Origin: a virus
IMG/VR virus record: IMGVR_UViG_3300046535_000869
Location: 38,083-102,082 of that record
Length of the DNA stretch: 64,000 bases
Reading direction: 5' to 3' (one strand)
A model generated the notes under the pieces. That model saw only the letters and a list, made by a program, of their open reading frames with translations, ran no database searches and was not told the DNA's origin. Below are positions 42,245-63,324 of the stretch, piece after piece. Both the position numbers and the translations under genes were made by a program. Position 1 is the first letter of the stretch. Each line of letters starts with the position of its first letter.

Positions 42245-42274
42245 ATGATACGCTCAACGGGTTGAGCATGTCAA
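42245..42274 (-). promoter_or_regulatory. Strong promoter with palindromic spacer
   Basis: Minus strand TTGACA, 18-bp spacer, TATCAT. The spacer contains the inverted repeat GCTCAACCCGTTGAGC, a likely operator. The TGA inside TTGACA is the stop codon of the upstream gene (42271-42495). Confidence 0.85.
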
Positions 42275-42495
42275 CAAGTATTTTTCGGAGGCGACAGCGG
42301 GTCGCCGACCGCGTGCCGCCGCCGCCACTCCTCGCGCCCGATCTTCTGGGCGTAGGCCCCGGAGCGCTCCATGTGCGGGACGGATGTGCGCTTGCCGTTC
42401 GGTTGCCGACACGGCCGCTCTGGAGCCGCCTCGCACTTCGGGCAGGCCATCTCGCGGACGACCTGGATGTTCGCCCAGCGGCTGATGCTGCTCAT
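42271..42495 (-). CDS. Zinc-finger phage protein
   Basis: The 74-residue protein has CPKCEAAPERPCRQPNG and then HMERSGAYA, a C-x2-C...C...H pattern common in short phage zinc-finger proteins. Its TGA overlaps the -35 box of the promoter at 42245-42274. Confidence 0.6.
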   Translation of the reverse strand: MSSISRWANIQVVREMACPKCEAAPERPCRQPNGKRTSVPHMERSGAYAQKIGREEWRRRHAVGDPLSPPKNTC

Positions 42496-42809
42496 CGTCG
42501 ACTCTGCGCCAGACGCTGCGCCTTCTGCGCCAGGACCGACTGGTAGATCGCGGACAGCTCCCGCGCGACGCAGCCCAGGAGATCGAGCCGCTCGACATGC
42601 TCCTGACGTGCGATGGCGAAGGCGTTGTCGCTCTGGACGTAGTAGTCCCGCGCGTTCGGGCTGGCGTCTTGTAGCGCCCGGATGGCCTCGTGGACCTTCG
42701 TCGTCGCCGTCTCGTACTGCGCCTCCAGGTCAAGCCCTGACGTGCCGTTCAGGTGAACGGTCGGCGCGATGACCGTGTGCTCGCCGATAGCGATCAGGTT
42801 GTTCTTCAT
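42492..42809 (-). CDS. Helical protein, unknown
   Basis: The 105-residue protein MKNNLIAIGEHTVIAP... has a short beta start and then helices (YETATTKVHEAIRALQDA). It is coupled on both sides. No family is recognised. Confidence 0.5.
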   Translation of the reverse strand: MKNNLIAIGEHTVIAPTVHLNGTSGLDLEAQYETATTKVHEAIRALQDASPNARDYYVQSDNAFAIARQEHVERLDLLGCVARELSAIYQSVLAQKAQRLAQSRR

Positions 42810-43015
42810 CGGTTGTACGGCTGGAGCGCCTCCTCCATCTCGACCTCGGCGCGGTCGAGCGCTTCGAGGGACTTGTTGAACCGCTCGCTGGCCCGCCGGA
42901 ATGTCGGCGAGTTGGTCTTGAACTGGACCCAGTAGTAGTAGCGCTCCTGGGCCTTGAGCGCCGCGCGGCCCGCGCGCATCAGGGAGATCGCCGCCCGTTC
43001 GACGCGGTTCTTCAT
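42806..43015 (-). CDS. Helical protein, unknown
   Basis: Start ATG 43015 (ATGA overlap). The 69-residue protein MKNRVERAAISLMRAG... is helical and charged. No family is recognised. Confidence 0.5.
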   Translation of the reverse strand: MKNRVERAAISLMRAGRAALKAQERYYYWVQFKTNSPTFRRASERFNKSLEALDRAEVEMEEALQPYNR

Positions 43016-43167
43016 GGCTTCCTCCGCCGCTGTTGGCGCAGGAAGTAGATCACGGTGTCGCAGACCAGAATCCAGAAGGCTGGCCGCGCGAACGGCGCGA
43101 TGGCGTCCGGGACGGAACCTGCGCTCAGCGCCTGCCAGCGCTCGATGAGCTTCGCGTTCTCGGTCAT
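43012..43167 (-). CDS. Membrane protein (51 residues)
   Basis: ATG 43167 overlaps the upstream stop (ATGA). The protein has a polar N-terminal half and a hydrophobic segment FWILVCDTVIYFL followed by QQRRRKP, placing the C-terminus inside. Function unknown. Confidence 0.55.
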   Translation of the reverse strand: MTENAKLIERWQALSAGSVPDAIAPFARPAFWILVCDTVIYFLRQQRRRKP

Positions 43168-43355
43168 CGCTGCGCCTCCACCAGCCGGTCGACGGCCCGC
43201 CGCGCCGCCTCGATCTCGGTCGCGCGGTGCGCTCCCAACCAGTCAAGTCGAGCCGTGGTTCCGATCACGTCGTCGCCCAGCGCCAGCCTGCCCATCGAGA
43301 CCAGCATCTTAAGCTGGGCCTCCGTGAGTCGCACGTCGTAGTACCTTCCCATCAT
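43164..43355 (-). CDS. Small protein, unknown
   Basis: The 63-residue protein MMGRYYDVRLTEAQLKM... resembles short phage proteins with an 'LTeaQl..Ll' start. Met2 is an alternative start. It is coupled on both sides. Confidence 0.5.
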   Translation of the reverse strand: MMGRYYDVRLTEAQLKMLVSMGRLALGDDVIGTTARLDWLGAHRATEIEAARRAVDRLVEAQR

Positions 43356-43435
43356 CGCCTCCGTAGCGCCAGAAAGAAGTTATAGAGGCTCAGCCCCAGC
43401 GCGACGCCGAGCATGAACTGTTGCGTCTCGGTCAT
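43352..43435 (-). CDS. Membrane peptide (27 residues)
   Basis: ATG 43435 and the TGA both overlap neighbours (ATGA on each side). MTETQQFMLGVALGLSLYNF is followed by FLALRRR, one span with a basic end. Confidence 0.55.
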   Translation of the reverse strand: MTETQQFMLGVALGLSLYNFFLALRRR

Positions 43436-43536
43436 CGGTCGAACCACTTCCCCGGATGCTGGCCCCGGAGCGACAGCCACATGAGCGCCGCCGCCGCCAG
43501 GACGATGAGCGCCGCGCCGATCTGTTGGAGTGTCAT
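43432..43536 (-). CDS. Membrane peptide (34 residues)
   Basis: ATG 43536 (TGATG overlap with the upstream stop) begins MTLQQIGAALIVLAAAALM, one hydrophobic span, followed by a basic segment ending KWFDR. It directly precedes another membrane peptide gene. Confidence 0.55.
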   Translation of the reverse strand: MTLQQIGAALIVLAAAALMWLSLRGQHPGKWFDR

Positions 43537-43775
43537 CACAGCCCCTTGTGCTCGCGCAACCATGCCAGCTCCGCGTCGAGCGCGTCCTGCCGGAGCACGA
43601 ACGGCCCCAGCTTCGGGCCGAGGACCGGACCCATGTCCGCGAACCAGCCCTTCCCGTTGTCGGCAGGCTCGACGTGGCTCACGCGCCGAACCGTCGCCGG
43701 ACCCATCGCCAGCAGCCCGGCCATCTCGTCCGAGTAGATGAACTGCGCGACGCCGTTCCTGATGTTCACTCTCAC
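43536..43775 (-). CDS. Conserved phage protein, unknown
   Basis: The 79-residue protein has RRVSHVEPADNGKGWFADM and GPKLGPFVLRQDALDAELAWL. I recall this RxSHVEP...GP.LGPF...A...E..WL layout from small proteins in many phages of high-GC hosts. Function unknown. Confidence 0.6.
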   Translation of the reverse strand: MRVNIRNGVAQFIYSDEMAGLLAMGPATVRRVSHVEPADNGKGWFADMGPVLGPKLGPFVLRQDALDAELAWLREHKGL

Positions 43776-43963
43776 TGGCCTGCTCCTGCTCGGAGGCCGA
43801 GCGTGTTCGGTTTGTTCATCTCCTCAGTCGCCGTGTCGCTGGTCGTCGCGCCGAGCGCCCGCTCCAGCATCTTCGTCGCGTCCTTGCAGGCGACGCCGCT
43901 GAAGCCCTTCGTCGTGATGACGGCCTTGCCGTTCTCGATGACGACCGTGATGGTCTGCGCCAT
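43772..43963 (-). CDS. DUF2997 protein
   Basis: The 63-residue protein has ITVVIENGKAVITTKGFSG and ACKDATKMLERALGA, the strand-turn-strand-helix with conserved GF.G..C..a...le.alG of DUF2997. It is followed four bases away by a DUF1257 gene; the two families commonly travel together, often near a Ycf46-like AAA+ protein, as here (50706-52286). Confidence 0.75.
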   Translation of the reverse strand: MAQTITVVIENGKAVITTKGFSGVACKDATKMLERALGATTSDTATEEMNKPNTLGLRAGAGQ

Positions 43964-43966
43964 GTT

Positions 43967-44428
43967 CTACCCCTTCACCATGTCAAGCTGCAACCCGGTC
44001 GGCGTGACCGTCCGCGTAATCCGGTAGCCCTGGCGCGCCATAATCCGCATCGTGACTTCCGCCGCCAGTTCGTTCTTCAGCGTCTCCAGGTTCTTCCCGG
44101 CCCGCTCCTCGATGGCTCGCCCGCCGCTCGACCAGTTGTCGTACAGCAGCTCGAAGCCTGGCTGGCCGTCGACGCGGTTGACCAGGCCGACCTCGTACAT
44201 GCCGTCCTTGTGGTCCTTGCGACGCAGCTTCCAGCCGTCGCACTTGCCGAAGTTTTTCGGGTCGTGGCCGTTCGAGACCGCCGCGACGCCGCCCCGGAAG
44301 TCGTTGACCCAGGTGCCGTACCACTTGTAGGTCGTGGCCTGCACCAGGTCGAAGCCGAGGCGATCCGCTGCCGACTTCAGCGCGTCCAGGTCCGTGACGA
44401 AACACTCGACCGATGCTACGTGACTCAT
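43967..44428 (-). CDS. DUF1257 (Ycf35-like) protein
   Basis: The 153-residue protein starts MSHVASVECFVTDLDALKSA, then has ADRLGFDLVQ and YEVGLVNRVDGQPGFELLYD, matching the DUF1257/Ycf35 family first known from chloroplasts and cyanobacteria. The family function is unknown; regulation of transcription or an AAA+-linked assembly role has been suggested. Its neighbour is DUF2997. Confidence 0.8.
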   Translation of the reverse strand: MSHVASVECFVTDLDALKSAADRLGFDLVQATTYKWYGTWVNDFRGGVAAVSNGHDPKNFGKCDGWKLRRKDHKDGMYEVGLVNRVDGQPGFELLYDNWSSGGRAIEERAGKNLETLKNELAAEVTMRIMARQGYRITRTVTPTGLQLDMVKG

Positions 44429-44676
44429 TTCACCGCCGCCTTCTGCTTGTTGGTCAGCGCCCAGAATGGAACCAGGTGCCGACGGTTAATCGGGTAGACG
44501 TGGCCGCGCTTCGGGTCGCGGACGTACAGGTGCTTCGTCCCCAGCTCCGAGTAGAGCAGCTCGACGACGACCGGCTGCGCGAAGTAGGCCCGGTCGGTCT
44601 CCAGGACGAACTGCTTGAGGAGCGCCGTCGGTGTCACCAGGTAGCCGGTCGTGTTCGTCATCGTCATCGTCTCCAT
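44425..44676 (-). CDS. Small early protein, unknown
   Basis: Frames begin at ATG 44676 (one base after the predicted transcript start), 44667 or 44661. The product (about 83 residues from the first ATG) starts METMTMTNTTGYLVTP and is beta-rich (LYSELGTKHLYVRDP). The start ATGGAGACG recurs in several genes after TATCAT promoters. Confidence 0.55.
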   Translation of the reverse strand: METMTMTNTTGYLVTPTALLKQFVLETDRAYFAQPVVVELLYSELGTKHLYVRDPKRGHVYPINRRHLVPFWALTNKQKAAVK

Positions 44677-44683
44677 GAACCGA

Positions 44684-44713
44684 ATGATAGGATAAAGCCC
44701 TGACCGAAGTCAA
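44684..44713 (-). promoter_or_regulatory. Early promoter (TTATCC class)
   Basis: Minus strand TTGACT, 18-bp spacer ending TTTATCC, TATCAT. Predicted start near 44677, one base before the first ATG of the gene at 44425-44676. Confidence 0.8.
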
Positions 44714-44723
44714 GGCTTTTCTT

Positions 44724-45068
44724 TTAGCGCGCCGTCGGAATCTTCGAGTCGGCCTCACGGTCGTGGTCGCCCTCAAACCAGCCACGGCCCGCGCTGATGT
44801 TGACCAGGCCCGCGTGATACGCCTCGAACGCCGCCACGGCCTCGCGCTTCGTCCGGTAGAGCATCCGGGAGCCGAGGCCCCGGAAGGACCAGAGCCAGCG
44901 CTTGCTGGTGCTGTGTGCCTTGCGGACAGGGTAGCCAGCCGAGCCGAAGCGGCTGACATGAACCAGCAGCGCTCGGTGGTCTTCGTTGTTGAACTGGGCC
45001 TCGAAGTAGGCAACCTCGCCCGCCGTCAGTTCCCGCTTCGTCGTCGCCGTCGTCATCATGTTGTCCAT
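44724..45068 (-). CDS. Small early protein, unknown
   Basis: ATG 45068 is one base past the predicted transcript start; ATG 45059 is an alternative. The product (about 114 residues) includes ELTAGEVAYFEAQFNNEDHR and a C-terminal part rich in aromatic residues (RTKREAVAAFEAYHAG). No family is recognised. Confidence 0.55.
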   Translation of the reverse strand: MDNMMTTATTKRELTAGEVAYFEAQFNNEDHRALLVHVSRFGSAGYPVRKAHSTSKRWLWSFRGLGSRMLYRTKREAVAAFEAYHAGLVNISAGRGWFEGDHDREADSKIPTAR

Positions 45069-45075
45069 GTAAGCG

Positions 45076-45104
45076 ATGATATGCTCAATGGAGTCGCCTG
45101 TCAA
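45076..45104 (-). promoter_or_regulatory. Early promoter (TTGAGCA class)
   Basis: Minus strand TTGACA, 17-bp spacer ending ATTGAGCA, TATCAT, with the upstream A-rich AAAATAGTTG element. Confidence 0.85.
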
Positions 45105-45148
45105 CAACTATTTTCAGCCGCCGCGATCTTTTTTTCGCGCGGCCGATC

Positions 45149-45448
45149 TCAGGCCGCGTCGACCCAGCGGCCCAGGCGTATCGCCTCGGCGAGCTGCTCC
45201 TCCGCGATGTGGATGGTCATCGCCTTCGCCAGCTTCTTGTAGTCGTCCGCGACCGTGCAGCGATAGCGCCGGGCCTCCCGGTCCAGCTCCTCGACGTGGA
45301 CGACGACCGACTCGCCGTACACTTCCAGGACGTAGGTCGCGCCGATAATCGGCTCCTCCGTCGGTGGCATTGATCTTGTCATGCGGCCAGTCTGCACTGG
45401 TTCGTCCGCGACCGCAAGTCCTTCGTCTTCCCTTCGCCTCGATCTCAT
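45149..45448 (-). CDS. Small protein, unknown
   Basis: ATG 45448 directly follows the upstream TAA, and GGGAGGA lies nine bases before it. The 99-residue protein has a basic start, then a beta-rich core (GATYVLEVYGESVVVHVEEL) and a helical end. An in-frame Met at residue 23 is a possible alternative start. Confidence 0.5.
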   Translation of the reverse strand: MRSRRREDEGLAVADEPVQTGRMTRSMPPTEEPIIGATYVLEVYGESVVVHVEELDREARRYRCTVADDYKKLAKAMTIHIAEEQLAEAIRLGRWVDAA

Positions 45449-46261
45449 TTAGAACAGTCCTCCCTGAATGGCGATCTTCGTCGCCGGTTCACGCTCTAGC
45501 GCGAACGGAACCTCGGCGACCGCCGGAGGCTCCGCGTTGACCTGGTCGGCGATCTCCGTCAGCACGTCCCGCGCCGACGCGCCTGGCCAGCCGTAGCTCG
45601 TCAGGAAGTCACAGCTCGCCGCCGTGACCGCCCACTCTCCGCCGCGCCCGGCCTGCCGGTCGAGCGTGTTCCCACAGCGCGCGATGCCGCGACATCCGGC
45701 CAGCGACATCTGGACGAACGTCATCTTGAAGCACAGGTCGGCCAGATCGGTCGCGTCGAACCAGACCCGGTTCGCGTCGACGCCGCGCGCCTTCAGGACC
45801 GCCGCCGTCGCGAGGATCATGCCGCCCGCGCCGCTCGCCGGTTCCGCAATCGTGATGTACGGTTGCCCGTCCAGGTCAGGCGTCAGGTCGCCCATCGTCA
45901 TCTCGGCCATCAGCCGGGAGACTTCTGGAGGCGTGAAGTACTGGCCGATGTGTCCGTTGACGGCCGCGATCCGCTCGTCCTGGGCGATAGCTCCCAGGCT
46001 GTCGCCTTGGCCCTCCAGGAGATCGAGCGTCAGCTCGCCGAGCAGCTCACCGAACTGCTGGGTCCTAGCCGCGCCGATGGCGTCCGCGACCCGCTGGTAG
46101 CGCGCCTCCAGGTTCGTCGCGCGCGGTTCTCCGGCCAGCGCCTTCGCCAGCGCGCAGTAGGCCATCTCGATGAAGCGCTCGAACTCGCGGTAGGGTGCCT
46201 CGCCCGCCCGCCCGTCGGCCAGCGCCTTGATGATGGTGGTCTGCCTGGTGCGGTCTCTCAC
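45449..46261 (-). CDS. HsdM-like N6-methyltransferase, catalytic motif not seen
   Basis: The 270-residue protein has GQYFTPPEVSRLMAEM (residues 106-121) and IAEPASGAGGMIL (138-150). These are the FTP and motif I blocks of type I HsdM-like N6-adenine methylases. The catalytic NPPF/NPPY motif expected ~60 residues later is absent; the corresponding segment reads GNTLDRQAGRG. It may therefore bind SAM or DNA without methylating, or act on another substrate. Confidence 0.72.
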   Translation of the reverse strand: MRDRTRQTTIIKALADGRAGEAPYREFERFIEMAYCALAKALAGEPRATNLEARYQRVADAIGAARTQQFGELLGELTLDLLEGQGDSLGAIAQDERIAAVNGHIGQYFTPPEVSRLMAEMTMGDLTPDLDGQPYITIAEPASGAGGMILATAAVLKARGVDANRVWFDATDLADLCFKMTFVQMSLAGCRGIARCGNTLDRQAGRGGEWAVTAASCDFLTSYGWPGASARDVLTEIADQVNAEPPAVAEVPFALEREPATKIAIQGGLF

Positions 46262-46491
46262 CGTCGTCTCCTCCGTATATCCGGGTCCGTCGTCGTGATC
46301 TCCGCCGGGTAGCCCAGCTCCATGTACGCCTGGTAGTTCGCCAGGTCATCGCGACCGAGCGCCGTGACGAAGCCCGTCCAGACGCCCTGCCAGACGAACG
46401 CCTGGCCCGGATCGACCTGTTGCCAGCGCCGACAGACGCGCTCGGCCCAGAGCCGGACCACGTCCTTCGTCGCCATCTTCTTCTTCGTCAT
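46258..46491 (-). CDS. Small protein, unknown
   Basis: ATG 46491 (ATGA overlap) begins MTKKKMATKDVVRLWAERV. The 77-residue protein is aromatic-rich in the middle (FVWQGVWTGFVTALG). No family is recognised. Confidence 0.5.
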   Translation of the reverse strand: MTKKKMATKDVVRLWAERVCRRWQQVDPGQAFVWQGVWTGFVTALGRDDLANYQAYMELGYPAEITTTDPDIRRRRR

Positions 46492-46766
46492 CCTCGCCTC
46501 CCGGCCTCGCGGCCGATCTCGGCCACGGTCCCGCGCTCGCGGACCCGCTCCTGGAGGAACGCTCGATCTTCCGGTCGCAGGCCGACGCCCGCGAAGTCGT
46601 AGTTCCCATGCCGGACCTCGGCCTCCTCGCGCGCCCGCGCGTAGCTGAAGTTGGGGGCCTGCTTCTCGTCCTGGCTGCACGGTAGACAGATGTCGTCCCG
46701 GTTGAAGTAGCTGGTCGTCCAGCTTCGCAGCTCGCCCTGACAGCGCGGGCAGATCTTCTCGCTCAT
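46488..46766 (-). CDS. Zinc-ribbon protein of common phage type
   Basis: Start chosen at ATG 46766 (AAGGAG six bases upstream). The 92-residue protein has CPRCQGELRSW, then FNRDDICLPCSQDEKQAPN, then VRHGNYDFAGVGL. This layout is familiar to me from many phage proteins of unknown function. Confidence 0.65.
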   Translation of the reverse strand: MSEKICPRCQGELRSWTTSYFNRDDICLPCSQDEKQAPNFSYARAREEAEVRHGNYDFAGVGLRPEDRAFLQERVRERGTVAEIGREAGRRG

Positions 46767-46884
46767 CGTCATCTCCTTGAATGTGGAAGGGCCGACGTGT
46801 TAGGAACAGCGCGCGCTCGCGGAATTGCGCCGCCTCTCGCTGCCCAGCGCCTGCACGGAACTGGCACGTCGACCCCTCAACCTC

Positions 46885-47070
46885 CTACGCCGGGCGGTAC
46901 TCCTCGGCGTGCTCGCACTCGTAGCAGAACCAGACCGCGACCAGGACGCGCCGCGTCGGGAGCGCCTGACCGGCGACATGATAACCGGGATGATAGACCT
47001 CCTCGGTTTGCGCCTGGCGGTCCAGGTGCATCGTCCCGCCGCACTCGCCGCACCGCTTCGTGGCGTCCAT
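46885..47070 (-). CDS. Zinc-ribbon microprotein (61 residues)
   Basis: ATG 47070 overlaps the upstream TAA (TAATG). The protein has CGECGGTMHL and WFCYECEH, a four-Cys ribbon with a beta-hairpin core. Function unknown. Confidence 0.6.
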   Translation of the reverse strand: MDATKRCGECGGTMHLDRQAQTEEVYHPGYHVAGQALPTRRVLVAVWFCYECEHAEEYRPA

Positions 47071-47309: not shown

Positions 47310-47317
47310 GTCCAGGG

Positions 47318-47346
47318 ATGATAGGATAAACCAGAACCGAAGTCAA
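47318..47346 (-). promoter_or_regulatory. Early promoter (TTATCC class)
   Basis: Minus strand TTGACT, 17-bp spacer ending TTTATCC, TATCAT. The -35 overlaps the end of the upstream gene (47343). Confidence 0.8.
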
Positions 47347-47827: not shown

Positions 47828-47834
47828 GTCCAGA

Positions 47835-47863
47835 ATGATAGGATAAAAGGCCGGGCCTGTCAA
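47835..47863 (-). promoter_or_regulatory. Early promoter (TTATCC class)
   Basis: Minus strand TTGACA, 17-bp spacer ending TTTTATCC, TATCAT, preceded by AAAATAGTTG. Diverges from the plus-strand promoter at 47894. Confidence 0.88.
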
Positions 47864-47893
47864 CAACTATTTTCAGGATCGGTGCGATTTTTT

Positions 47894-47921: not shown

Positions 47922-47928
47922 AGGTGCC

Positions 47929-50628: not shown

Positions 50629-50657
50629 ATGATATGTTCAATGATTGTGCTTGTCAA
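50629..50657 (-). promoter_or_regulatory. Early promoter (TTGAACA class)
   Basis: Minus strand TTGACA, 17-bp spacer ending ATTGAACA, TATCAT, preceded by the A-rich element AAAATAGTTG. Confidence 0.85.
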
Positions 50658-50705: not shown

Positions 50706-52286
50706 CTACTCGCCGACCTCGATGGTCCGCTCGGTGGGCAGCGGAGCCTCGTCCGGCCGCTCGTCCTCCGGCGACTTGTACCAGCCCGGCTTGCTGGCGC
50801 TCAGGAACCGCCCGGAGGCGCTCGACCGGAGGTCCTTAATGACCTGGCGCGCGCTGACCGCCGACGGGATGATGTAGCGTGCCGCCTCGACGACCGTGGT
50901 CTCGAACTCGGCCGCGCGCTCGCAGGCCCGCTCAATCTCCGCCCCGGTCCAGCCGTCGTCGAACCCTTCCGGGAACGTCGCTTGCTCCGCCGTCAGGCCC
51001 AGCTTGCTGACGTAGACGTCCCAGACCGCCCGGCGACCGGCCTTGTCAAGCAGGTCATGGAAGAACTGGTCCGGGAAGCGCCGGTTCATCTCCGGCGAGA
51101 AGGTCGTCGTCTTGTTGGCTGTCGCGATGAACAGGACGCGCCCGCCCTCGCCCGCCATCGCTGTGACCATCTTCAGGCCGACCCGGATGGTCGCCTCGGA
51201 CTGGCCGACGACGCCGCCCTTCATGCCGCCCAGGTCGAACACCAGGACCGGCTTGCCGCTGGCCTTGCCGACCGCCTTGGCGAGCTGGGACTTGCCGCAA
51301 CCGGCGACGCCGCCGAGCAGGACGCCCAGGTGTGCCTTCCGGCCCTTCGGCGTCATCACGCCGTCCTGGATGTAGCTGAGGACCTGGCCGACCTGGTCCT
51401 TGCCGACGCCGCTGTCGCCAACGTGCTCGGCCATGCCGCCCGCGAATGCCTTCTCCGCCTCGTCGATGAAGACGATGACCTTGAAGGCGTTCTTCGCGAT
51501 GTAGCGCGTGAAGAACTCGACGACGTTGTCGAGGCCCTTCAGGTCTTCCAGCTTCTCCTGCCCGCGCCAGACGCGCAGCCCGGCCGTGTTCTCGATGGCC
51601 TGAATCTTCCGCTCCCACAGCTTGGCGACGTCGATGCCCTTCGGCGTCAGGCTGATGGCCGTCGCCTCCTCCGCCGTGTAGGCCGACAGACCGATGACCG
51701 CGTCGAGCGCCGCCTCGCGCACCGCGCCGACCGGGAGCGCCAGGTTCGCGTTTTTGTGCTGCTGGTCGACGATGGCCTCCAGCTCCGCGCGGGTCGGGAG
51801 AGGTTCGCTCAGAAGGTGGATGTCGCCGGTCAGCTCGACCGGCAGCTTGAACGTCGGGCCGAGCAGGACGAGCTGTCGACGGTTCATCTTGAACTTGTCG
51901 CGCAGGTTCCAGACGGCCTGGACGTTGCCGGTCTCCGCGAGCTGTCGATGCGCGTTCAGGATGAAGACGACCGTCTTCTCCGAGAACTTCTCCGCCATCT
52001 CCATCGCCGTGACGAAGTTGACGCTCTGGAACAGGTTCGGGAACTTGGTCAGCTCAGCCTGGCCGGTCTCGTTCAGACCGATGAGGCCGCGTACGGCGTC
52101 CCACTGGCACGTCGGGACGACGCCGTTTAGGCTGACCCGGATGGCCTTGATGGTCGCCGCCGGGTCGGGCGTCTCGATGGCAATCAACGGCGAGGATACG
52201 CGCCGCGCTGCCTTGAAGGACTTGACCAGCTCACTGTCCGCTGGCGCTACCGTCTGGTCGATTGTCGCTACTGCCTTGGGTGTCAT
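50706..52286 (-). CDS. Ycf46-like AAA+ ATPase with permuted Walker motifs
   Basis: The 526-residue protein has an N-terminal Ycf46-type domain: VVFILNAHRQL, LRDKFKMNRRQLVLLGPTFK, and LPVELTGDIHLLSEPLPTR. LKGLDNVVEFF follows at 249-259. The Walker B segment VFIDEAEKAFAGG (272-284) and its follow-on helix VLSYIQDG (302-309) come before Walker A GGVAGCGKS (325-333). VFDLGGMKGGVVGQSEATIR (349-368) and sensor-1 FIATANK (386-392) come after it. In standard Ycf46, Walker A precedes Walker B. ATPase activity with an altered core topology is expected; the substrate is unknown. A promoter lies 36 bases upstream. Confidence 0.85.
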   Translation of the reverse strand: MTPKAVATIDQTVAPADSELVKSFKAARRVSSPLIAIETPDPAATIKAIRVSLNGVVPTCQWDAVRGLIGLNETGQAELTKFPNLFQSVNFVTAMEMAEKFSEKTVVFILNAHRQLAETGNVQAVWNLRDKFKMNRRQLVLLGPTFKLPVELTGDIHLLSEPLPTRAELEAIVDQQHKNANLALPVGAVREAALDAVIGLSAYTAEEATAISLTPKGIDVAKLWERKIQAIENTAGLRVWRGQEKLEDLKGLDNVVEFFTRYIAKNAFKVIVFIDEAEKAFAGGMAEHVGDSGVGKDQVGQVLSYIQDGVMTPKGRKAHLGVLLGGVAGCGKSQLAKAVGKASGKPVLVFDLGGMKGGVVGQSEATIRVGLKMVTAMAGEGGRVLFIATANKTTTFSPEMNRRFPDQFFHDLLDKAGRRAVWDVYVSKLGLTAEQATFPEGFDDGWTGAEIERACERAAEFETTVVEAARYIIPSAVSARQVIKDLRSSASGRFLSASKPGWYKSPEDERPDEAPLPTERTIEVGE

Positions 52287-52321: not shown

Positions 52322-52350
52322 ATGATAGGATAAAGCCTGACTGAAGTCAA
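52322..52350 (-). promoter_or_regulatory. Early promoter (TTATCC class)
   Basis: Minus strand TTGACT, 17-bp spacer ending TTTATCC, TATCAT. Drives the AAA+ gene with a leader of about 30 bases. Confidence 0.85.
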
Positions 52351-53054: not shown

Positions 53055-53084
53055 ATGATATGCTCAATGTGTTGAGCTTGTCAA
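53055..53084 (-). promoter_or_regulatory. Early promoter with palindromic spacer
   Basis: Minus strand TTGACA, 18-bp spacer, TATCAT. The spacer contains GCTCAACACATTGAGC, an imperfect inverted repeat like that at 42245. Confidence 0.85.
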
Positions 53085-54521: not shown

Positions 54522-54550
54522 ATGATATGCTCAATGTTTCTGGATGTCAA
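54522..54550 (-). promoter_or_regulatory. Early promoter (TTGAGCA class)
   Basis: Minus strand TTGACA, 17-bp spacer ending ATTGAGCA, TATCAT, preceded by GAAAATAGTTG. Confidence 0.88.
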
Positions 54551-55039: not shown

Positions 55040-55068
55040 ATGATATGCTCAATAGAATCGGTTGTCAA
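55040..55068 (-). promoter_or_regulatory. Early promoter (TTGAGCA class)
   Basis: Minus strand TTGACA, 17-bp spacer ending ATTGAGCA, TATCAT, preceded by GAAAATAGTTG. Confidence 0.88.
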
Positions 55069-57251: not shown

Positions 57252-57256
57252 TCGAG

Positions 57257-57821: not shown

Positions 57822-57864
57822 CGTCGTCTCCGTTCGTGTCAGCCGACCATCGACTGACTTGCAG

Positions 57865-57893
57865 ATGATAGGATAAAGGCCAGGCAGAGTCAA
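57865..57893 (-). promoter_or_regulatory. Early promoter (TTATCC class)
   Basis: Minus strand TTGACT, 17-bp spacer ending TTTATCC, TATCAT. Leader of about 36 bases to the gene at 57540-57821. Confidence 0.85.
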
Positions 57894-57894
57894 G

Positions 57895-57930
57895 AGAAAA
57901 GTGAGGACCGGGAGTTTTATCTCCCGGCCC
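57895..57930 (-). terminator. Rho-independent-type terminator
   Basis: Minus strand GGCCGGGAG and CTCCCGGTC form a stem around ATAAAA, followed by TCACTTTTCTC. It lies 10 bases after the stop of the DUF6011-like gene and just before the promoter at 57865. Confidence 0.75.
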
Positions 57931-57939
57931 CTGCCCCGA

Positions 57940-58716
57940 CTAGAACCTCCAGGCCCCGTTGACCGCCTCCCGCTCGGCTCGGTCGATGTCCATGTTCTCC
58001 GCCGCGCGCTCGGCCGCGATCTCGGCCAGGTAGTCCGCGCGCTCGTTGGCGATCTCGGCGTCCAGGATGCGCTGTTCCATCTCGTCCTCTTCGGCGATCC
58101 GGCCCTCGACCGGGACCGCCGTCAGGGCCTTCGTTCCCTTCGGGTGATGCGGGAGGCCCCAGTGCTTCGCGCAGATGGGACCGTAGCCGACTTCGATGCT
58201 GCCCTCGTCCGTGAGCTTCAGCCCGCAGAAGCTGCAGGAGCAGGTCAGCGCGCCGTACGCCTTGGCCGCTGCGACCGGGTCCGCCGCGATGGCCGTCAGC
58301 GTCGCGATGACCGAACCGTCGCTGTAGGTCATCGGCCCGGCCGTCTTGCCGTCGACGCCGATGCGGCCGACCCAGAAGCCGTCAATCTTGACCTGGACGG
58401 AGCCAGGGAACTTCGAGCCGCTGCCCGCGATGCTGAGAACCAGCTCGCCGCCCTTGGGTGCGAGGAAGCGCGCCTTCGGGAACTTGAGACCGCGCTCGCG
58501 CGCCGCCATCAGGAACGCTGCGATGCCGGTCGACTCGACCACCGGAGCTGCCGCGACCGCCGCAACCTTCGACGCCGTCGCCTTCGCGCAGGCTTCCAGG
58601 CTGATGTGCTTCGCGCCCGCTTCGCGCGTCCAGGTGATTACCTCGCCCGCCTTGATGTAGCCGCCGCAGGCTTTGCAGGAACCGTTGAACTTGGAGGTCA
58701 TCGTCATCGTCGTCAT
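57940..58716 (-). CDS. Protein with two zinc sites, DUF6011-like
   Basis: Start chosen near ATG 58716 (AAGGAG upstream); ATG 58707 is possible. The ~258-residue protein has CKACGGYIKAGE near the N-terminus. A beta-rich middle follows, then CSCSFCGLKLTDEGSIEVG with GPICAKHWG, the DUF6011 zinc-binding pattern. A long acidic helix closes it. Common in phages of high-GC bacteria; function unknown. Confidence 0.7.
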   Translation of the reverse strand: MTTMTMTSKFNGSCKACGGYIKAGEVITWTREAGAKHISLEACAKATASKVAAVAAAPVVESTGIAAFLMAARERGLKFPKARFLAPKGGELVLSIAGSGSKFPGSVQVKIDGFWVGRIGVDGKTAGPMTYSDGSVIATLTAIAADPVAAAKAYGALTCSCSFCGLKLTDEGSIEVGYGPICAKHWGLPHHPKGTKALTAVPVEGRIAEEDEMEQRILDAEIANERADYLAEIAAERAAENMDIDRAEREAVNGAWRF

Positions 58717-58747
58717 CTCCTTGCGCCTTGATTGGCCCGACCAGAGA

Positions 58748-58776
58748 ATGATAAGACAAACGAATGAGCATGTCAA
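58748..58776 (-). promoter_or_regulatory. Early promoter (TTGTCT class)
   Basis: Minus strand TTGACA, 17-bp spacer ending TTTGTCT, TATCAT. Confidence 0.85.
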
Positions 58777-58825
58777 CGATTATCTTGGGCCTCGGTCGAT
58801 TTATTTACAGGCCCAGAAAACCGGG

Positions 58826-59041
58826 CTATTTCGGCCTGATTCGGTCTCCTTTCGCTTTCTCCGCCGCCTTCTCGCAGGCCCGGTGGACGGCCCGGTCCGC
58901 GATGACGACCGCCTCCTCGATGACGTTCGACGTTGGGTCCGCCGAGGCCGACGCCTCTCGGAGCAGCTCCGCGACCTCTTCACGCGCGCGTGAACGCCAG
59001 AGCACGCCGACCGTGAACCGAACCCAGACATGCTGGCTCAT
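58826..59041 (-). CDS. Helical small protein, unknown
   Basis: ATG 59041 (ATGA overlap). The 71-residue protein MSQHVWVRFTVGVLWRSRAR... has a strand then helices. Downstream lies a hairpin with TGGGCCT and AGGCCCA arms before the next promoter. Confidence 0.5.
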   Translation of the reverse strand: MSQHVWVRFTVGVLWRSRAREEVAELLREASASADPTSNVIEEAVVIADRAVHRACEKAAEKAKGDRIRPK

Positions 59042-59385
59042 CGGAGCAGCTCCTGAATGGCCCTGAGCTTCTCGGCGCTGTGACACTGACGGACCGCGTC
59101 GACGATCTTGCCGATCTCGTCGTGGACGAAGACCGCCGAGTCGACCTGCTCAGCCGACGTGTAGATCTCCCGATTCTTGCCGTACAAGTTCGCGCCTCGC
59201 AGGAGCAGCGTCTTCTTGTCGACCTTCAGCGCGTCCGAGTATTCGCCGTCCAGGAGCCAGCTCGCCTTCGTCTCGGCCGTGATGACGTGCGCGACGAAGG
59301 ACGACCGGAAGTCCGGCCCGCCGCCCTTGTCCTTATAGACCCGGACGTTTCCGTCCCAGACCCAGACCGTGTCGCCGATCTTCAT
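59038..59385 (-). CDS. Small protein, unknown
   Basis: The 115-residue protein MKIGDTVWVWDGNVRVYKDK... is beta-rich (SWLLDGEYSDALKVDKKTL), with a C-terminal helix. ATGA overlap with the upstream gene. No family is recognised. Confidence 0.55.
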   Translation of the reverse strand: MKIGDTVWVWDGNVRVYKDKGGGPDFRSSFVAHVITAETKASWLLDGEYSDALKVDKKTLLLRGANLYGKNREIYTSAEQVDSAVFVHDEIGKIVDAVRQCHSAEKLRAIQELLR

Positions 59386-59747
59386 TTGCCGCCTCCCGTC
59401 TCCAGGCCGACCATCCCGCCCGCGACCGCCTCAGCCAGCTTGACCATCAGCGCGCCGACCTCGTCGCCGCTGCCGGTCGTCAGGACGAACCCAGGCTGCG
59501 GCTTGCCCATCGAGTCCTTCGCAGCCAGGACGCGCAGCCGGAAGAACCGCGCCGGGAGCCTGCACTCGTCAATCTCGACCGCCTGGCCGTCGCCGTCCTC
59601 GCGGTCCTTCTCGAACCGCGCCACGGTCTGCCAGTCGCCGTGCGAGAACTTGCCGACCTTGAGGTAGCGCTTCCCGAACAGCGCGCGGTCGCGCGGGTCG
59701 GGTTCGTACAGGCCAGCCATCGGACCATCGTGAAGATGGCGGCTCAT
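59382..59747 (-). CDS. Small protein, unknown
   Basis: ATG 59747 (ATGA overlap). The 121-residue protein has GDWQTVARFEKDREDGDGQA and ARFFRLRVLAAKD, a mixed strand-helix pattern, and ends GLETGGGK. No family is recognised. Confidence 0.5.
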   Translation of the reverse strand: MSRHLHDGPMAGLYEPDPRDRALFGKRYLKVGKFSHGDWQTVARFEKDREDGDGQAVEIDECRLPARFFRLRVLAAKDSMGKPQPGFVLTTGSGDEVGALMVKLAEAVAGGMVGLETGGGK

Positions 59748-60124
59748 CGCGTCACCGTCCGACGTCCGGTCAGGACGTTCACGACTTCGACGCCCTTGCC
59801 GAACGCTGCCGACATCTCGAACATCTCTTCCTCGGACGGCTCGACCGCCTCGCGCTGCCGGAGGTCGGCGACGATGGCCGCAGTGTAGACGCGCCGGGCC
59901 TGGTCCTGGACCGCCGGGCGGAAGATCGCTACCCCGTCTGCGGTCGAGCGCTCCGCGCCGTGAACCTTGGCGTCGAAGATGACCAGGCCGTCGGCCTCGG
60001 CGTGCGCGCGCGCGTCCTCGGCGAATAGCGGCGCGTCGTTTGACTTCCATCGGTAGACACCCTCGGCGTCGTAGTAGCTCTCGAACTGGAGGCTGCGATT
60101 CGCGTGCAGGTCTTGGTTTTTCAT
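59744..60124 (-). CDS. Small early protein, unknown
   Basis: Start chosen at ATG 60124 (GGAG nine bases upstream); ATG 60133 is also in frame. The ~126-residue product has LQFESYYDAEGVYRWKSND and a C-terminal segment including LTGRRTVTR. No family is recognised. Confidence 0.55.
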   Translation of the reverse strand: MKNQDLHANRSLQFESYYDAEGVYRWKSNDAPLFAEDARAHAEADGLVIFDAKVHGAERSTADGVAIFRPAVQDQARRVYTAAIVADLRQREAVEPSEEEMFEMSAAFGKGVEVVNVLTGRRTVTR

Positions 60125-60170
60125 CGTCGTCATCTCCGTGAACCTTGTCAGCGTTCGTGCTGACCAGGGA

Positions 60171-60199
60171 ATGATAAGACAAAAGGAATCCGCTGTCAA
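60171..60199 (-). promoter_or_regulatory. Early promoter (TTGTCT class)
   Basis: Minus strand TTGACA, 17-bp spacer ending TTTTGTCT, TATCAT. Confidence 0.85.
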
Positions 60200-60430
60200 C
60201 TACTTTCTTCGGCCCAGGTGCTCTTCGAGGAACCGGACCCGCGCGACCGCCTCCCGCTTCAGGTCGTAGTCGCCGTCGACGACGCCGTCGATGAGGACGA
60301 CCCAGCGCCAGCGCCCGGCCGAGACGTAGGTCCGGTTGCCGCGCTCGGTCACGGCCTCGTTCCCGTCCCACTCCTTCGCGACGGTGAACTTCGCGCCGGT
60401 TCGCATTTCCTTCACCAGCCCAGTCGCCAT
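60200..60430 (-). CDS. Small protein, unknown
   Basis: ATG 60430 overlaps the upstream stop (TGATG). The 76-residue protein MATGLVKEMRTGAKFTVAKE... is beta-rich in the middle (RWRWVVLIDGVVDGDYD) and ends in basic residues GRRK. Its stop is at the -35 of the next promoter. Confidence 0.5.
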   Translation of the reverse strand: MATGLVKEMRTGAKFTVAKEWDGNEAVTERGNRTYVSAGRWRWVVLIDGVVDGDYDLKREAVARVRFLEEHLGRRK

Positions 60431-60570
60431 CAGCGTGCCTCCGGCTGAACCGCGACCGGCTCCGCGCATCGAGGACATGGAATCGAGACCAGGTCGGCCG
60501 GGACGACGACCAGCCGGGTCGCGAACCCGCACTGGCAGACGACCCGGCCCAGACGCAGGACGGAGGCCAT
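60430..60570 (-). CDS. Zinc-ribbon microprotein, paralogue of 56777-56956
   Basis: ATG 60570 overlaps the upstream stop (TGATG). The 46-residue protein MASVLRLGRVVCQCGFATRL... with SIPCPRCAEPVAV matches the plus-strand gene at 56777. Two Cys-x-Cys / Cys-x2-Cys pairs could bind zinc. Confidence 0.75.
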   Translation of the reverse strand: MASVLRLGRVVCQCGFATRLVVVPADLVSIPCPRCAEPVAVQPEAR

Positions 60571-60905
60571 CAGGCCCTCCCGTCCAGGACCGCCGCCGCG
60601 CGCTCCAACTGCTTCGCCGCCGAGTGGCGGACTTCCCAGGACTCCTGCCGGGCCTGGTCGACCAGCCGGACGGCTTCCTGCCGACCCTTCGAGACGATCT
60701 CCGCCGCCTCGGCCTTCGCCGCCGCGAGCAGGTCGAACGCCTCCCGCCGGGCCTGCGCTGGCATCGTCGGGTCGGGCGTCACGTCGTTCGTGATGTCCGC
60801 GACGAAGCTCGCCCGGTTCTCGGCCAGCCAGGGTCCCAGGTAGGACTCGGTCCCGAACGCCCGGATGGTCTTGTCCAGCAGCTTGATCTCGTCGGCTTTC
60901 ATCAT
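60570..60905 (-). CDS. Helical early protein, unknown
   Basis: ATG 60905 (AGGAGG seven bases upstream; second ATG at 60902). The ~111-residue protein MMKADEIKLLDKTIRAFGTE... is helical with an Ala/Glu/Gln-rich coiled-coil-like C-terminal half (AKAEAAEIVSKGRQEAVRL). Confidence 0.55.
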   Translation of the reverse strand: MMKADEIKLLDKTIRAFGTESYLGPWLAENRASFVADITNDVTPDPTMPAQARREAFDLLAAAKAEAAEIVSKGRQEAVRLVDQARQESWEVRHSAAKQLERAAAVLDGRA

Positions 60906-60948
60906 CGTCGTCGCCTCCTGGTGTCCGCCGGAATTGGCTGACCAGAGA

Positions 60949-60977
60949 ATGATATGTTCAATGGAACCTGATGTCAA
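60949..60977 (-). promoter_or_regulatory. Early promoter (TTGAACA class)
   Basis: Minus strand TTGACA, 17-bp spacer ending ATTGAACA, TATCAT. Confidence 0.85.
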
Positions 60978-61023
60978 CAGGAAAATGAGACCCGGCGAAA
61001 ATAATTCGCTCGGGCCTCCGGGC

Positions 61024-61470
61024 CTACCGCGCACCGTGCCTGCCGCCTCCCTTCCTGATGGGCCGACCTGGCAACCAGTCGCCTTCAGCGCCGACCTTCG
61101 GTTCAGCCTCTGGGTTCGCCCGCTCAGCCGCCAGCTTGTCCGCTTGGTACCTGGCCTTCGCCGAACGACTGCGGATCTTGGTCGTCAGGGCCTCCCGCTG
61201 CCGCGCGATGATCGTCGACACGCTCGGCGGAAGGTGAACCCGCTGCAGGCCCTCCGGCCCGGTGATGGTCACGAACACAATGTCGCCGACCTCCGGGACC
61301 CGGAACGTCTCGACGATGTAGGACCGGACGCCGCCGATGCCCATCAGGTTGGCCTCGGTCTTGGTCGACGGCCCAGCGTGCGCGAAGCCCTGCGCCTGGC
61401 CGTACGCGCGGTCGAAGGCGTCCGGCTGGTGCTCGGTGAAGTGTCGCTCGGTCTCGTTCTTGGTCGTCAT
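61024..61470 (-). CDS. Conserved-type phage protein, unknown
   Basis: The 148-residue protein MTTKNETERHFTEHQPDAFD... includes FRVPEVGDIVFVTITGPEG and a basic helical segment (LTTKIRSRSAKARYQADKL). GGAGGAGACG precedes the ATG. No family is recognised. Confidence 0.55.
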   Translation of the reverse strand: MTTKNETERHFTEHQPDAFDRAYGQAQGFAHAGPSTKTEANLMGIGGVRSYIVETFRVPEVGDIVFVTITGPEGLQRVHLPPSVSTIIARQREALTTKIRSRSAKARYQADKLAAERANPEAEPKVGAEGDWLPGRPIRKGGGRHGAR

Positions 61471-61494
61471 CGTCTCCTCCGGTCTCTGGTGAAT

Positions 61495-61521
61495 CCCGCC
61501 GGACGGTTGTCGCCCGGCGGG
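61495..61521 (-). terminator. Strong hairpin
   Basis: CCCGCCGG and CCGGCGGG arms form an 8-9-bp GC stem between the genes at 61576-61896 and 61024-61470. No clear U-tract follows, so it may attenuate rather than terminate. Confidence 0.5.
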
Positions 61522-61575
61522 CCTAGCCTACCATCGCTTCATCCTGCCCTCCTTCCTGGAGCCGAGCCTCCCGGC

Positions 61576-61896
61576 TCAGGCCCCGATTGCCACGTAGTAG
61601 CCTGCCGCCTGCACGCGGTAGGTGACCCGTCCACCGCGCGCGCGCATCGGTGTCATCGTCGGCACGGACCCGGTGAAGAAAATCACCGCCTCGCGCACGC
61701 CGAGCAGGTCGCGGTCGTTGTCGAGGACCACGTCCGCGTCGATGGCGAGCTTCCAGTTCTCCCGGTTCTCGACCTGCTTGAAGTAGGACGCCAGCTCCTT
61801 GCGCGTCCATTCCATCGACCCGTTCTTGGCCGCGACCAGGTTGTCGAACTCGGCCATCTCGGCGTTCAGGGCTTCGATTTGCGTCATCTGGGTCAT
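61576..61896 (-). CDS. Small early protein, unknown
   Basis: ATG 61896 begins MTQMTQIEALNAEMAEFDNL; the protein (about 106 residues) has RKELASYFKQVENRENWKLA and ends VTYRVQAAGYYVAIGA. GGAGACG precedes the ATG. No family is recognised. Confidence 0.55.
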   Translation of the reverse strand: MTQMTQIEALNAEMAEFDNLVAAKNGSMEWTRKELASYFKQVENRENWKLAIDADVVLDNDRDLLGVREAVIFFTGSVPTMTPMRARGGRVTYRVQAAGYYVAIGA

Positions 61897-61941
61897 CGTC
61901 GTCTCCGGGTCTGTTGGGCCAGCGTTCGTGCTGACCAGTGA

Positions 61942-61970
61942 ATGATAAGATAAAGCGTTGAGCATGTCAA
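61942..61970 (-). promoter_or_regulatory. Early promoter (TTATCT class)
   Basis: Minus strand TTGACA, 17-bp spacer ending TTTATCT, TATCAT, preceded by AAGATAGTTG. Confidence 0.88.
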
Positions 61971-61983
61971 CAACTATCTTCAA

Positions 61984-62433
61984 CTAAATCACGAACCCGC
62001 CGCGCGCCGCCAGCTCCCGGACCGCCCGCTCGTACCGTGGCTTCAGGCTCAGCGGGAGGCCCGGCGTCTCCAGGTGGTCCGCCAGGTCGGCACGCTTGAC
62101 CTCGATGGCCAGCTCGTCGCCGCTCGTCGCCAGGACGCTGATGTACATCCCGTAGGTCGTGAAGCCCTCCGGCCTGGTCAGCTTACGGACCGCCGCGACG
62201 ACCTCGGCGCTGATGCCGACGCTCGCCAGGTACTCCAGGGTGATGTCGGTGTCCTCGACGACGTCGTGGAGCCAGGCCGCTGCCTTGGCCTTGTCGCCGC
62301 TCACGCGGGCGACGACGCGCTCGACGTGCAGGATGTAGTCGTGGCCGGTCGCGTCGACCTGGTTCGTGTGGGCGTCGCGCGCGATCTCTTCGGCCAGCGC
62401 CAGCTCGTTCTTCGTTGTCATCATCATCTCCAT
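61984..62433 (-). CDS. Small HD hydrolase, SpoT/MESH1-like
   Basis: ATG 62433 lies one base past the predicted transcript start (alternatives at the next Met codons). The ~149-residue protein has ARDAHTNQV (His 22), YILHVERVV (His 36), AAAWLHDVVEDTDI (HD 56-57, ED 60-61) and VAAVRKLTRPEG. These are the motifs of the small alarmone (ppGpp) hydrolase group, including the ED diad. It could remove alarmones made by the host in response to infection, but other nucleotides are possible substrates. Confidence 0.78.
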   Translation of the reverse strand: MEMMMTTKNELALAEEIARDAHTNQVDATGHDYILHVERVVARVSGDKAKAAAWLHDVVEDTDITLEYLASVGISAEVVAAVRKLTRPEGFTTYGMYISVLATSGDELAIEVKRADLADHLETPGLPLSLKPRYERAVRELAARGGFVI

Positions 62434-62440
62434 ATCCAGA

Positions 62441-62469
62441 ATGATATGCTCAACGGCCGGGAGAGTCAA
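62441..62469 (-). promoter_or_regulatory. Early promoter (TTGAGCA class)
   Basis: Minus strand TTGACT, 17-bp spacer ending GTTGAGCA, TATCAT. The promoter overlaps the 3' end of the upstream gene (62450-62725). Confidence 0.85.
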
Positions 62470-62725
62470 GCCCTTTCTTGGCCAGGGCAAAAATAATCTC
62501 CTGGTGCCGGGCCTCGGCCCAGGCGAGCGCCTTCGCCTTTGAGGCGAAGTGGACGCTGCTCGCGAAGGTCCCGTCGGTGTTGCAGCGTGAGCCGTTTCGA
62601 TACACCCAGTAGATGCCGACCTTCCGGCCGGACTCGACCCGGAGGCCGATGGGACCTCGGACCAGCCAGCGCCCGGACTCGGCCAGCGCCACGTACCCGT
62701 AGGGAGATTTGAGCCAGGTCATCAT
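62450..62725 (-). CDS. Small protein, unknown
   Basis: The 91-residue protein MMTWLKSPYGYVALAESGRW... has GIYWVYRNGSRCNTDGTFAS and a helical C-terminus (ASKAKALAWAEARHQ), like a small beta-beta-helix domain. Its 3' end carries the next promoter. Confidence 0.55.
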   Translation of the reverse strand: MMTWLKSPYGYVALAESGRWLVRGPIGLRVESGRKVGIYWVYRNGSRCNTDGTFASSVHFASKAKALAWAEARHQEIIFALAKKGLDSPGR

Positions 62726-62731
62726 CGCCTC

Positions 62732-63088
62732 CTAGTCGTGATCCATCTCGTCGCGCCGGACCTCGGCCGCGACCCGCGCGTCCATCTCCTCGAACGTCTC
62801 GCCAGGCCAGGTGCCGCCATCCTGGCAGGACTCGACGCTGACGAGCGCGCCGCAGGCCAGGCAGGACGTGACGTGCTCGCTGCCGTCGCAGTTCGTGACG
62901 GCGTCCTCATGCCCGCAGGCCAGCGGTGACCCGCCCTGCTGTGTGGGCTTGTGGCCCGCGACGAACAGCTCGATGTAGTCCAGGTCGCCCTCGATGTCGA
63001 ACACGAACTGGTCCTCCAGGGGCATCTGGGCCTTGTCGCCGACCATAACCACCGTCCCGCAGCCGCATGAGCAGGTTGTCGTATCCAT
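62732..63088 (-). CDS. Cys-rich zinc-binding protein
   Basis: ATG 63088 begins MDTTTCSCGCGTVVMVGDKA. The 118-residue protein has CSCGC, then CGHED, CDGSEH and SCLACG, enough ligands for two zinc sites, and ends in an acidic helix. GGGAG precedes the ATG region. Confidence 0.6.
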   Translation of the reverse strand: MDTTTCSCGCGTVVMVGDKAQMPLEDQFVFDIEGDLDYIELFVAGHKPTQQGGSPLACGHEDAVTNCDGSEHVTSCLACGALVSVESCQDGGTWPGETFEEMDARVAAEVRRDEMDHD

Positions 63089-63102
63089 CGTCGTCATCTC
63101 CC

Positions 63103-63288
63103 TTATTTGCGCCCGGTGTTGAACATTTCCAGGTCCTTGACGTCCTCGCGCTGACGGAGGATCTGGTGGAGCTGCCGAGCCGCCATGAAGCCCCTCGGCC
63201 CGGTGAACGCCTGGCGGACATCGTCGTCGTTCTCGTCGAGGAACCGGACGACCCAACCGCGCTCGCCGCTCTGTGTTCGCGTGTCCAT
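63103..63288 (-). CDS. Small early protein, unknown
   Basis: ATG 63288 is one base past the predicted transcript start and no Shine-Dalgarno site is visible, so translation may be leaderless. The 61-residue protein MDTRTQSGERGWVVRFLDEN... is mixed strand-helix. Confidence 0.55.
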   Translation of the reverse strand: MDTRTQSGERGWVVRFLDENDDDVRQAFTGPRGFMAARQLHQILRQREDVKDLEMFNTGRK

Positions 63289-63295
63289 GTGTGAG

Positions 63296-63324
63296 ATGAT
63301 AGGATAAACGCAGGAGTGAGTCAA
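63296..63324 (-). promoter_or_regulatory. Early promoter (TTATCC class)
   Basis: Minus strand TTGACT, 17-bp spacer ending TTTATCC, TATCAT. Confidence 0.85.

Follow-up and report, generated by a model that had tools for sequence, protein, structure and literature searches.

What keeps seven bases nearly fixed inside a family of phage promoters whose neighboring spacer bases vary almost at random? The question arises from positions 38083 to 102082 of the 102,082-base IMG/VR virus record IMGVR_UViG_3300046535_000869 (G000), a stretch of 64,000 nucleotides (nt) that we call the window and number from its first base. An initial annotation of the window, made from the sequence alone, described about 17 near-identical minus-strand promoters from 42 to 63 kb with a few exchangeable cassettes just before the -10 box, and suggested that the cassette types may define separately controlled regulons, with named phage proteins as candidate regulators. 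Here, we report that the near-identical promoters, the constrained 7-nt cassette (the word) and its exchangeability held up, that separate regulons were not supported and the named regulators did not fit, and that the word is specific to each phage genome.

Promoter family and word

Sites were identified with the exact pattern TTGACW-N15-20-TATMAT, and the expected number was taken from dinucleotide shuffles. The window contained 18 matches (shuffle mean, 0.01; maximum, 1), 17 of which were minus-strand sites within 42245-63324, the span first described. Across the whole record, 19 sites combined TATCAT with a 17- or 18-nt spacer, 17 in the 22-kb early region and 2 elsewhere (window 20637-20666 and G000:35708-35736, the latter in the record outside the window). 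The G000 site was a further good one, with the word TTGAGCA; the match at 20637-20666 (minus strand, TTGACA-18-TATCAT, word TTGGTCT) has no start codon or Shine-Dalgarno (SD) sequence nearby and is probably due to chance and not a family member. Hexamers matched 10 to 11 of the 12 consensus bases at all 16 sites of the scanned stretch, and three 10-mers were over-represented in the record: TTGAGCATAT (7 seen, 0.003 expected), TTTATCCTAT (6 seen, 0.004 expected) and ATAGTTGTTG (8 seen, 0.002 expected). With its hexamer pair at 16 to 18 bp in excess of chance, the family is by its sequence one of putative sigma70-type phage early promoters, and a near-identical, putatively strong copy would precede nearly every early gene of this ~100-kb phage.

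Read on the transcribed strand, each site comprised an A-rich tract, TTGAC(A/T), 10 to 11 variable bases, the 7-nt word and TATCAT. The tract took the form GAAAATAGTTG or a degenerate AAGATAG/AAGAAAG; the sequence first noted upstream of the -35 box was found exactly (AAAATAGTTG) at six sites, with a degenerate A-rich form at most others. A 17-nt spacer was the rule, and those at 42245, 44684 and 53055 (and at 20637) had 18 nt; at both lengths the word kept its contact with the -10 box. Among the 17 sites, the word was TTGAGCA five times, TTGAGCG once, TTGAACA twice, TTTATCC six times, TTTGTCT twice and TTTATCT once; as first described, the 7 nt were thus limited to a few types (TTGARCA, TTTATCC and TTTRTCT, plus the single TTGAGCG). 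Copies of the words elsewhere than at promoters were few.

Across the window sites, information per position approached its maximum in the hexamers, was high in the word and fell to 0.2 to 0.5 bits in the left spacer. Recent bulk duplication fails to explain the constancy of the word, because the left spacer is low in information while the word and -10 box are high; selection on the word is needed, because a conserved-variable-conserved pattern lies within 29 bp and its variable part is close to random. We regard the 7-nt word as a probable selected cis-element. The cassettes were exchangeable, as proposed, in that the same left half, TTGACATGCTCATTCG, was identical at G000:35708 and window 58748 and was joined to TTGAGCA at the former and TTTGTCT at the latter.

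Two other descriptions of the word were rejected. An extended -10 element (TGn) would lie at the wrong position. The dyad formed by TGCTCAA just after the -35 box and TTGAGCA before the -10 box occurred in a few window sites; as a universal operator (TGCTCA/TGAGCA) it failed, since few of the window sites, fewer than half, had the complete pair, and TTTATCT and TTTGTCT could likewise be accompanied by the left half.

Genome-specific words in related phages

Relatives were sought with the AAA ATPase gene of the window (50706-52286, minus strand). The search returned 69 IMG/VR loci, plus loci in many Bryobacterales metagenome-assembled genomes (MAGs). ATPases of a close clade were 58 to 61% identical, and that of the cultured podovirus Tunturi_3, which infects Tunturiibacter (Acidobacteriota; PMC11924767), was 35 to 37% identical. 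The host is probably an Acidobacteriota bacterium, because the ATPase relatives are Tunturi_3 and loci in Bryobacterales MAGs. Among relatives found via the ATPase, TATCAT promoter families were present only in the close clade; the others had few or no such promoters and mixed -10 boxes, and in Tunturi_3 the TTGACA promoters had a variety of -10 boxes and no word in common. No match to named phages was obtained by megablast. DNA-pattern scans with TTGARCA, AAAATAGTTGTTGACA (among the matches listed), TTTATCC and TTGATAN words added no phage with a multi-site TATCAT family to those described here, apart from one short contig with the TTGATAN word.

Each phage of the clade had its own words. The window phage used TTGARCA, TTTATCC and TTTRTCT; G003, G004 and G006, which are one phage in three metagenomes, carried TTGATAT at 9 of 9 TATCAT sites; G005 had TTGATAG at 6 of 8, with ATGATAG and TTGATAT at the other two; the word of G002 and G001/G008 was looser (TTGG/ATGG/GTGC-type) and preceded TATCAT or TACCAT. 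In G004, a second class placed TTTTGG or TTTTGT before TAATAT with a 16-nt spacer. (At 30037, 39905 and 53099 of G004, TTGACW-16-TAATAT sites had TTTGG or TTTTGT before the -10 box, and 2 of the 3 were leaderless.)

The ATPase promoter was orthologous in five genomes and carried TTTATCC in the window, TTGATAT in G004, TTGATAG in G005 and GTGCGAT in G002 and G001. At the last 4 positions of the word, the mean distance between dialects exceeded that within dialects by 1.34 of 4 (p=0.0002); the corresponding excess was 0.43 of 8 in the left spacer and 0.07 of 6 in the -35 box. The word varies where the -35 box does not, and it is genome-specific, with orthologous promoters carrying the word of their own genome. 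At the G004 and G005 sites, word and -10 box combined into an inverted repeat, TGATA-N-TATCA, that overlaps the -10 box; this repeat and the TGCTCAA/TTGAGCA dyad of the window suggest that a dimeric protein may bind there in competition with RNA polymerase.

We consider the chances evenly balanced that these are early promoters with a selected word read by a trans-acting factor whose specificity has shifted between phages. On this account, the promoters would serve the host housekeeping (sigma70-type) RNA polymerase through an A-rich, UP-like tract, TTGAC(A/T), a 17- to 18-bp spacer and TATCAT, and one promoter per short transcription unit would let many small genes be transcribed independently. 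About half of the promoters would give leaderless mRNAs, and most others in the window a short hairpin followed by an SD sequence. The word and -10 box would be read jointly by the factor, and shifts in its specificity between related phages would leave all promoters of a genome with that genome's word. The factor would most likely act as a phage-encoded repressor or modulator that occludes the -10 region, for shut-off or superinfection exclusion.

Leaders and promoter sites

In five related records, an ATG lay 6 to 8 nt past the -10 box at 27 of 52 sites, against a background of 4% (P about 2e-24). The leaderless share was 10 of 19 sites in the window phage and 11 of 13 in G004. At the ten window-phage sites, this ATG opened the frame of the downstream gene, as in TATCAT-TCACTAC-ATG GAG ACG ATG ATG. 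Of the 27 leaderless ATGs, 26 opened at least 35 codons, which is weak evidence alone, as 57 to 70% of all early-strand ATGs did likewise. About half of the sites are thus predicted to give leaderless mRNAs, with the ATG at or beside the transcription start. The geometry matches the published signature of bacterial leaderless genes, TANNNT ~12 bp upstream, from a survey that includes Acidobacteria (PMC3160421). The remaining sites, 20637 excepted, had 5' structure followed by a GGAG-type SD sequence and ATG; folding z-scores of the eight SD leaders were all negative (-0.1 to -3.0), individually weak and mutually consistent.

All 17 sites of the early region are on the minus strand. Leaderless promoters with TTTATCC lay at 63296-63324 (TTGACT-17-TATCAT; ATG 7 nt past the -10 box), 47835-47863 (TTGACA-17-TATCAT; 74-amino-acid open reading frame [ORF]), 47318-47346 (TTGACT-17-TATCAT; ATG 8 nt past the -10 box, 79-amino-acid ORF) and 44684-44713 (TTGACT-18-TATCAT; 83-amino-acid ORF). 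Those with TTGAGCA lay at 62441-62469 (TTGACT-17-TATCAT; 149-amino-acid ORF), 45076-45104 (TTGACA-17-TATCAT; 114-amino-acid ORF) and, each with GAAAATAGTTG upstream, 55040-55068 (TTGACA-17-TATCAT; 66-amino-acid ORF), 54522-54550 (TTGACA-17-TATCAT; 132-amino-acid ORF) and 53055-53084 (TTGACA-18-TATCAT; 38-amino-acid ORF). The leaderless promoter at 50629-50657 (TTGACA-17-TATCAT; 104-amino-acid ORF) had TTGAACA.

A 5' hairpin and SD leader followed the promoters at 61942-61970 (TTGACA-17-TATCAT, word TTTATCT), 60171-60199 (TTGACA-17-TATCAT, word TTTGTCT), 57865-57893 (TTGACT-17-TATCAT, word TTTATCC; terminator-like hairpin upstream), 52322-52350 (the ATPase gene promoter; TTGACT-17-TATCAT, word TTTATCC) and 42245-42274 (TTGACA-18-TATCAT, word TTGAGCG with the left half TGCTCAA of the dyad). 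The last precedes a 319-amino-acid gene of unassigned function (41243-42202, minus strand) that was conserved in all four long clade phages and Tunturi_3. At 58748-58776 (TTGACA-17-TATCAT, word TTTGTCT), whose first 16 nt are those of the G000:35708 site, 5' structure and an SD leader followed, and at 60949-60977 (TTGACA-17-TATCAT, word TTGAACA), an SD leader with a weak hairpin.

Strong hairpins ended just before the A-rich tract at 57904-57931 and upstream of 50657, 45104 and 60977; these may terminate transcription of the preceding unit or mark where its transcript is processed.

Search for a reader

None of the three regulators first proposed was sustained. The HigA-like HTH_3 protein (32606-32854, minus strand) was not found in five related records; with HTH_3 confined to the window phage among six records, we rejected it as the word reader. 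The match of the protein at 16607 to HTH_17 was below threshold. The ORF at 40935-41696 had no Pfam match and overlaps the conserved 319-amino-acid gene in another frame. A phage-encoded sigma factor was likewise rejected, with weak, sub-threshold Sigma70_r4 matches only, one of them inside a 1,537-amino-acid open frame. For 43967-44428, a suspected Ycf35/DUF1257 protein, Pfam gave no match.

The sole recognizable regulator common to all four long clade phages was an LmbU-like protein (31409-31963, minus strand), for which a ParB/Noc-type DNA-binding fold is tentatively predicted. It scored 94 bits against NCBIfam NF038070 (cut-off, 125; E value, 9.6e-27); all four members matched, none above the cut-off. 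Its model had a predicted local distance difference test (pLDDT) score of 85, and the best PDB matches were Spo0J/Noc (probability, 0.9 to 0.99, with an E value of about 0.4). Every one of the four long clade members had the gene, whereas among 28 other relatives it was clear in 1 (plus one marginal match with a stop); this distribution gave a Fisher p of 0.00014, though the four members are one clade.

LmbU has been described as a family of actinomycete regulators, and its published site is CGCCGGCG (PMC6510168). G005 carried four copies of a 14-bp palindrome, TACCGCCGGCGGTA, that contains this site, and G026 had the LmbU-like gene and no such promoters. We did not adopt the protein as the reader of the words because of the G005 copies of the published palindrome, which lie elsewhere, and the G026 gene without promoters.

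Several palindromes were private to one genome. The copies of TACCGCCGGCGGTA in G005 lay at 23974, 52600, 73649 and 79775, three of them directly before an ATG. A perfect 14-bp palindrome in G002, TCACGGTACCGTGA, had nine exact copies over 122 kb (19961, 32409, 51322, 84043, 90479, 99058, 104783, 111803 and 120942) and none with 1 to 2 mismatches; some overlap gene ends, and the element resembles an operator or partition site that is dispersed and strictly kept. In the window phage, TCACGCGCGCGTGA occurred three times (window 58980 and 12622, and in G000 outside the window), along with near copies, TCACGCGGGCGTGA. As binding sites of the LmbU-like protein, these palindromes are more plausible than the words.

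Alternative explanations

Several results weigh against a dedicated reader with shifted specificity. No sigma factor scored above the cut-off in the six records, comparison of small proteins with Pfam revealed no family of DNA-binding proteins that the window, G005 and G004 phages all share, and the LmbU-like protein probably targets separate palindromes. There is no direct sign of lysogeny or immunity, because no tyrosine integrase was found in the six records (fragments are possible, and serine integrases were outside the search). Instead of a single word class, the window phage has two or three. The 10 nt upstream and the 10 nt downstream (leader) of the sites also varied from genome to genome, so some of the pattern reflects the descent of a genome's promoters from common ancestors.

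The leading alternative is that RNA polymerase itself contacts the word, as a spacer or extended -10 element for a host sigma factor, with dialects reflecting different hosts and no dedicated regulator; we think this unlikely. It draws on the recurrence of T at -18 and of G or T at -17 in most dialect words, and on six Bryobacterales-type MAGs in which the single recurrent TTGACA-TATCAT promoter upstream of an HU-like gene keeps AATC(C/T)-TATCAT, resembling TTTATCC and TTTATCT. However, sigma contacts are strongly conserved across bacteria, and the four bases before the -10 box vary between dialects though the -35 and -10 boxes are constant. Distant relatives, Tunturi_3 included, have TTGACA promoters without such words, and TTGARCA was essentially absent from host genomes (1 match). 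Among eight host-type genomes, ATC(C/T) before TANNNT recurred mainly at one HU-like promoter and ARCA was essentially absent, which led us to reject the idea that hosts use the words generally in their promoters. The TTT class may be contacted by sigma or read by a host protein; the host AATC(C/T) matches rest on one orthologous promoter and could be coincidence. That promoter was strongly conserved in Bryobacterales and related MAGs (L301-L307) and read TTGACA-18-TATCAT with AATCC or AATCT before the -10 box and mostly GGTTTGC after it; the HU-like gene was recognized by eye from sequence.

Alternatively, the words may be hitchhikers: promoters would have spread within a genome by recombination, and a shared word would record family history and no function. 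Recombination between promoters is evident where the same left half is joined to different words (G000:35708 and window 58748), and upstream, downstream and, weakly, left-spacer segments cluster by genome too. We nevertheless judge this account unlikely, as the 8 to 10 nt between the -35 box and the word are nearly random while the word is fixed (9 of 9 identical in G004), which is unexpected without selection.

That word types within the window phage mark separate regulons, as the initial annotation suggested, is improbable: although there are two clear classes (TTG-type and TTT-type), a second class in G004 (TTTTGG/TTTTGT-TAATAT, 16-nt spacer) and a weak association of the TTG class with the AAAATA tract (p=0.05), the types alternate along the map and show no link to leader class (Fisher p=0.64) or to the final base of the -35 box (p=0.13), G005 uses what is essentially a single word, and searches of phage proteins found no reader.

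The explanation that we prefer remains a trans-acting factor that reads the word with the -10 box. We put forward tentatively, and with less confidence, a more specific form of it, in which each phage of the clade would itself encode a transcription factor reading a private word of 4 to 7 bp joined to the -10 box in every early promoter of that phage. Such a factor would co-evolve with its word across 10 to 20 promoters simultaneously and, within host-polymerase promoters that are ordinary in other respects, create a phage-specific transcriptional identity (for example, for mutual exclusion of related phages).

Other features

Proteins of the window gave weak to good Pfam matches to Tad2-like (Thoeris anti-defense), dUTPase, DUF3310, KTSC, GIY-YIG, N6-methylase and HD domain families. 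A single tRNA-Ala (GGC) was predicted at 30140-30233, on the strand opposite a long open frame (29005-30369). Window positions 1-1500 and adjoining G000 36500-38000 held a long minus-strand array of short codon repeats (TCGCCGTCGG and GTCAGCCCGT units), a repetitive, low-complexity coding region.

Significance and comparison with known systems

Should a phage factor read the word, TTGARCA, TTGATAT, TTGATAG and the TTGG-type words would be a natural series in which specificity has changed at every promoter of a genome, and a route into the rewiring of phage regulons and the mutual exclusion of related phages. The sites would also supply a set of putative early promoters and of signals for leaderless initiation in phages of Acidobacteriota, a phylum abundant in soil from which few phages have been isolated.

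Coliphage T4 has dozens of strong, near-identical early promoters for host sigma70, with A-rich upstream tracts and short early units, and these follow one consensus. The present family resembles them in its A-rich tracts and in near-identical sigma70-type promoters driving short units, and differs in its genome-specific word; we know of no genome-by-genome switching of a spacer word in T4 early promoters.

Cluster K mycobacteriophages carry SAS/ESAS repeats before start codons, the consensus of which shifts between subclusters (PMC3203893). They share with our sites many near-identical elements, mostly in one orientation and just upstream of the starts of varied gene families, as well as changes of consensus at fixed positions between subclusters or phages. 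ESAS, however, are paired 17-bp inverted repeats beside a 13-bp box and are proposed to act in translation, whereas here, in probable Acidobacteriota phages, a full -35/-10 promoter contains an internal 7-nt word; the Cluster K 13-bp GGGATAGGAGCCC and 17-bp inverted repeats were not among the repeated elements recovered here. The stoperators of Cluster A mycobacteriophages (PMC6550527, PMC9283540) are asymmetric sites of ~13 bp that differ between related phages along with the repressor, and site sequences here likewise differ between related phages in concert. Unlike Cluster A, in which stoperators are spread across the genome, the word is a signal here only against a promoter -10 box, and neither a repressor nor a tyrosine integrase was found.

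Cluster O mycobacteriophages have leaderless SigA-like promoters (PMC4351075), and our sites share with these and with TANNNT genes (PMC3160421) a -10 box just before the start codon, such that the transcript would begin at the first codon; unlike in those systems, leaderless promoters here make up a large part of the early set. A limited literature search found no description of a word-in-promoter arrangement. What sets this family apart from the known kinds is a private word inside a complete promoter, fixed to its -10 box.

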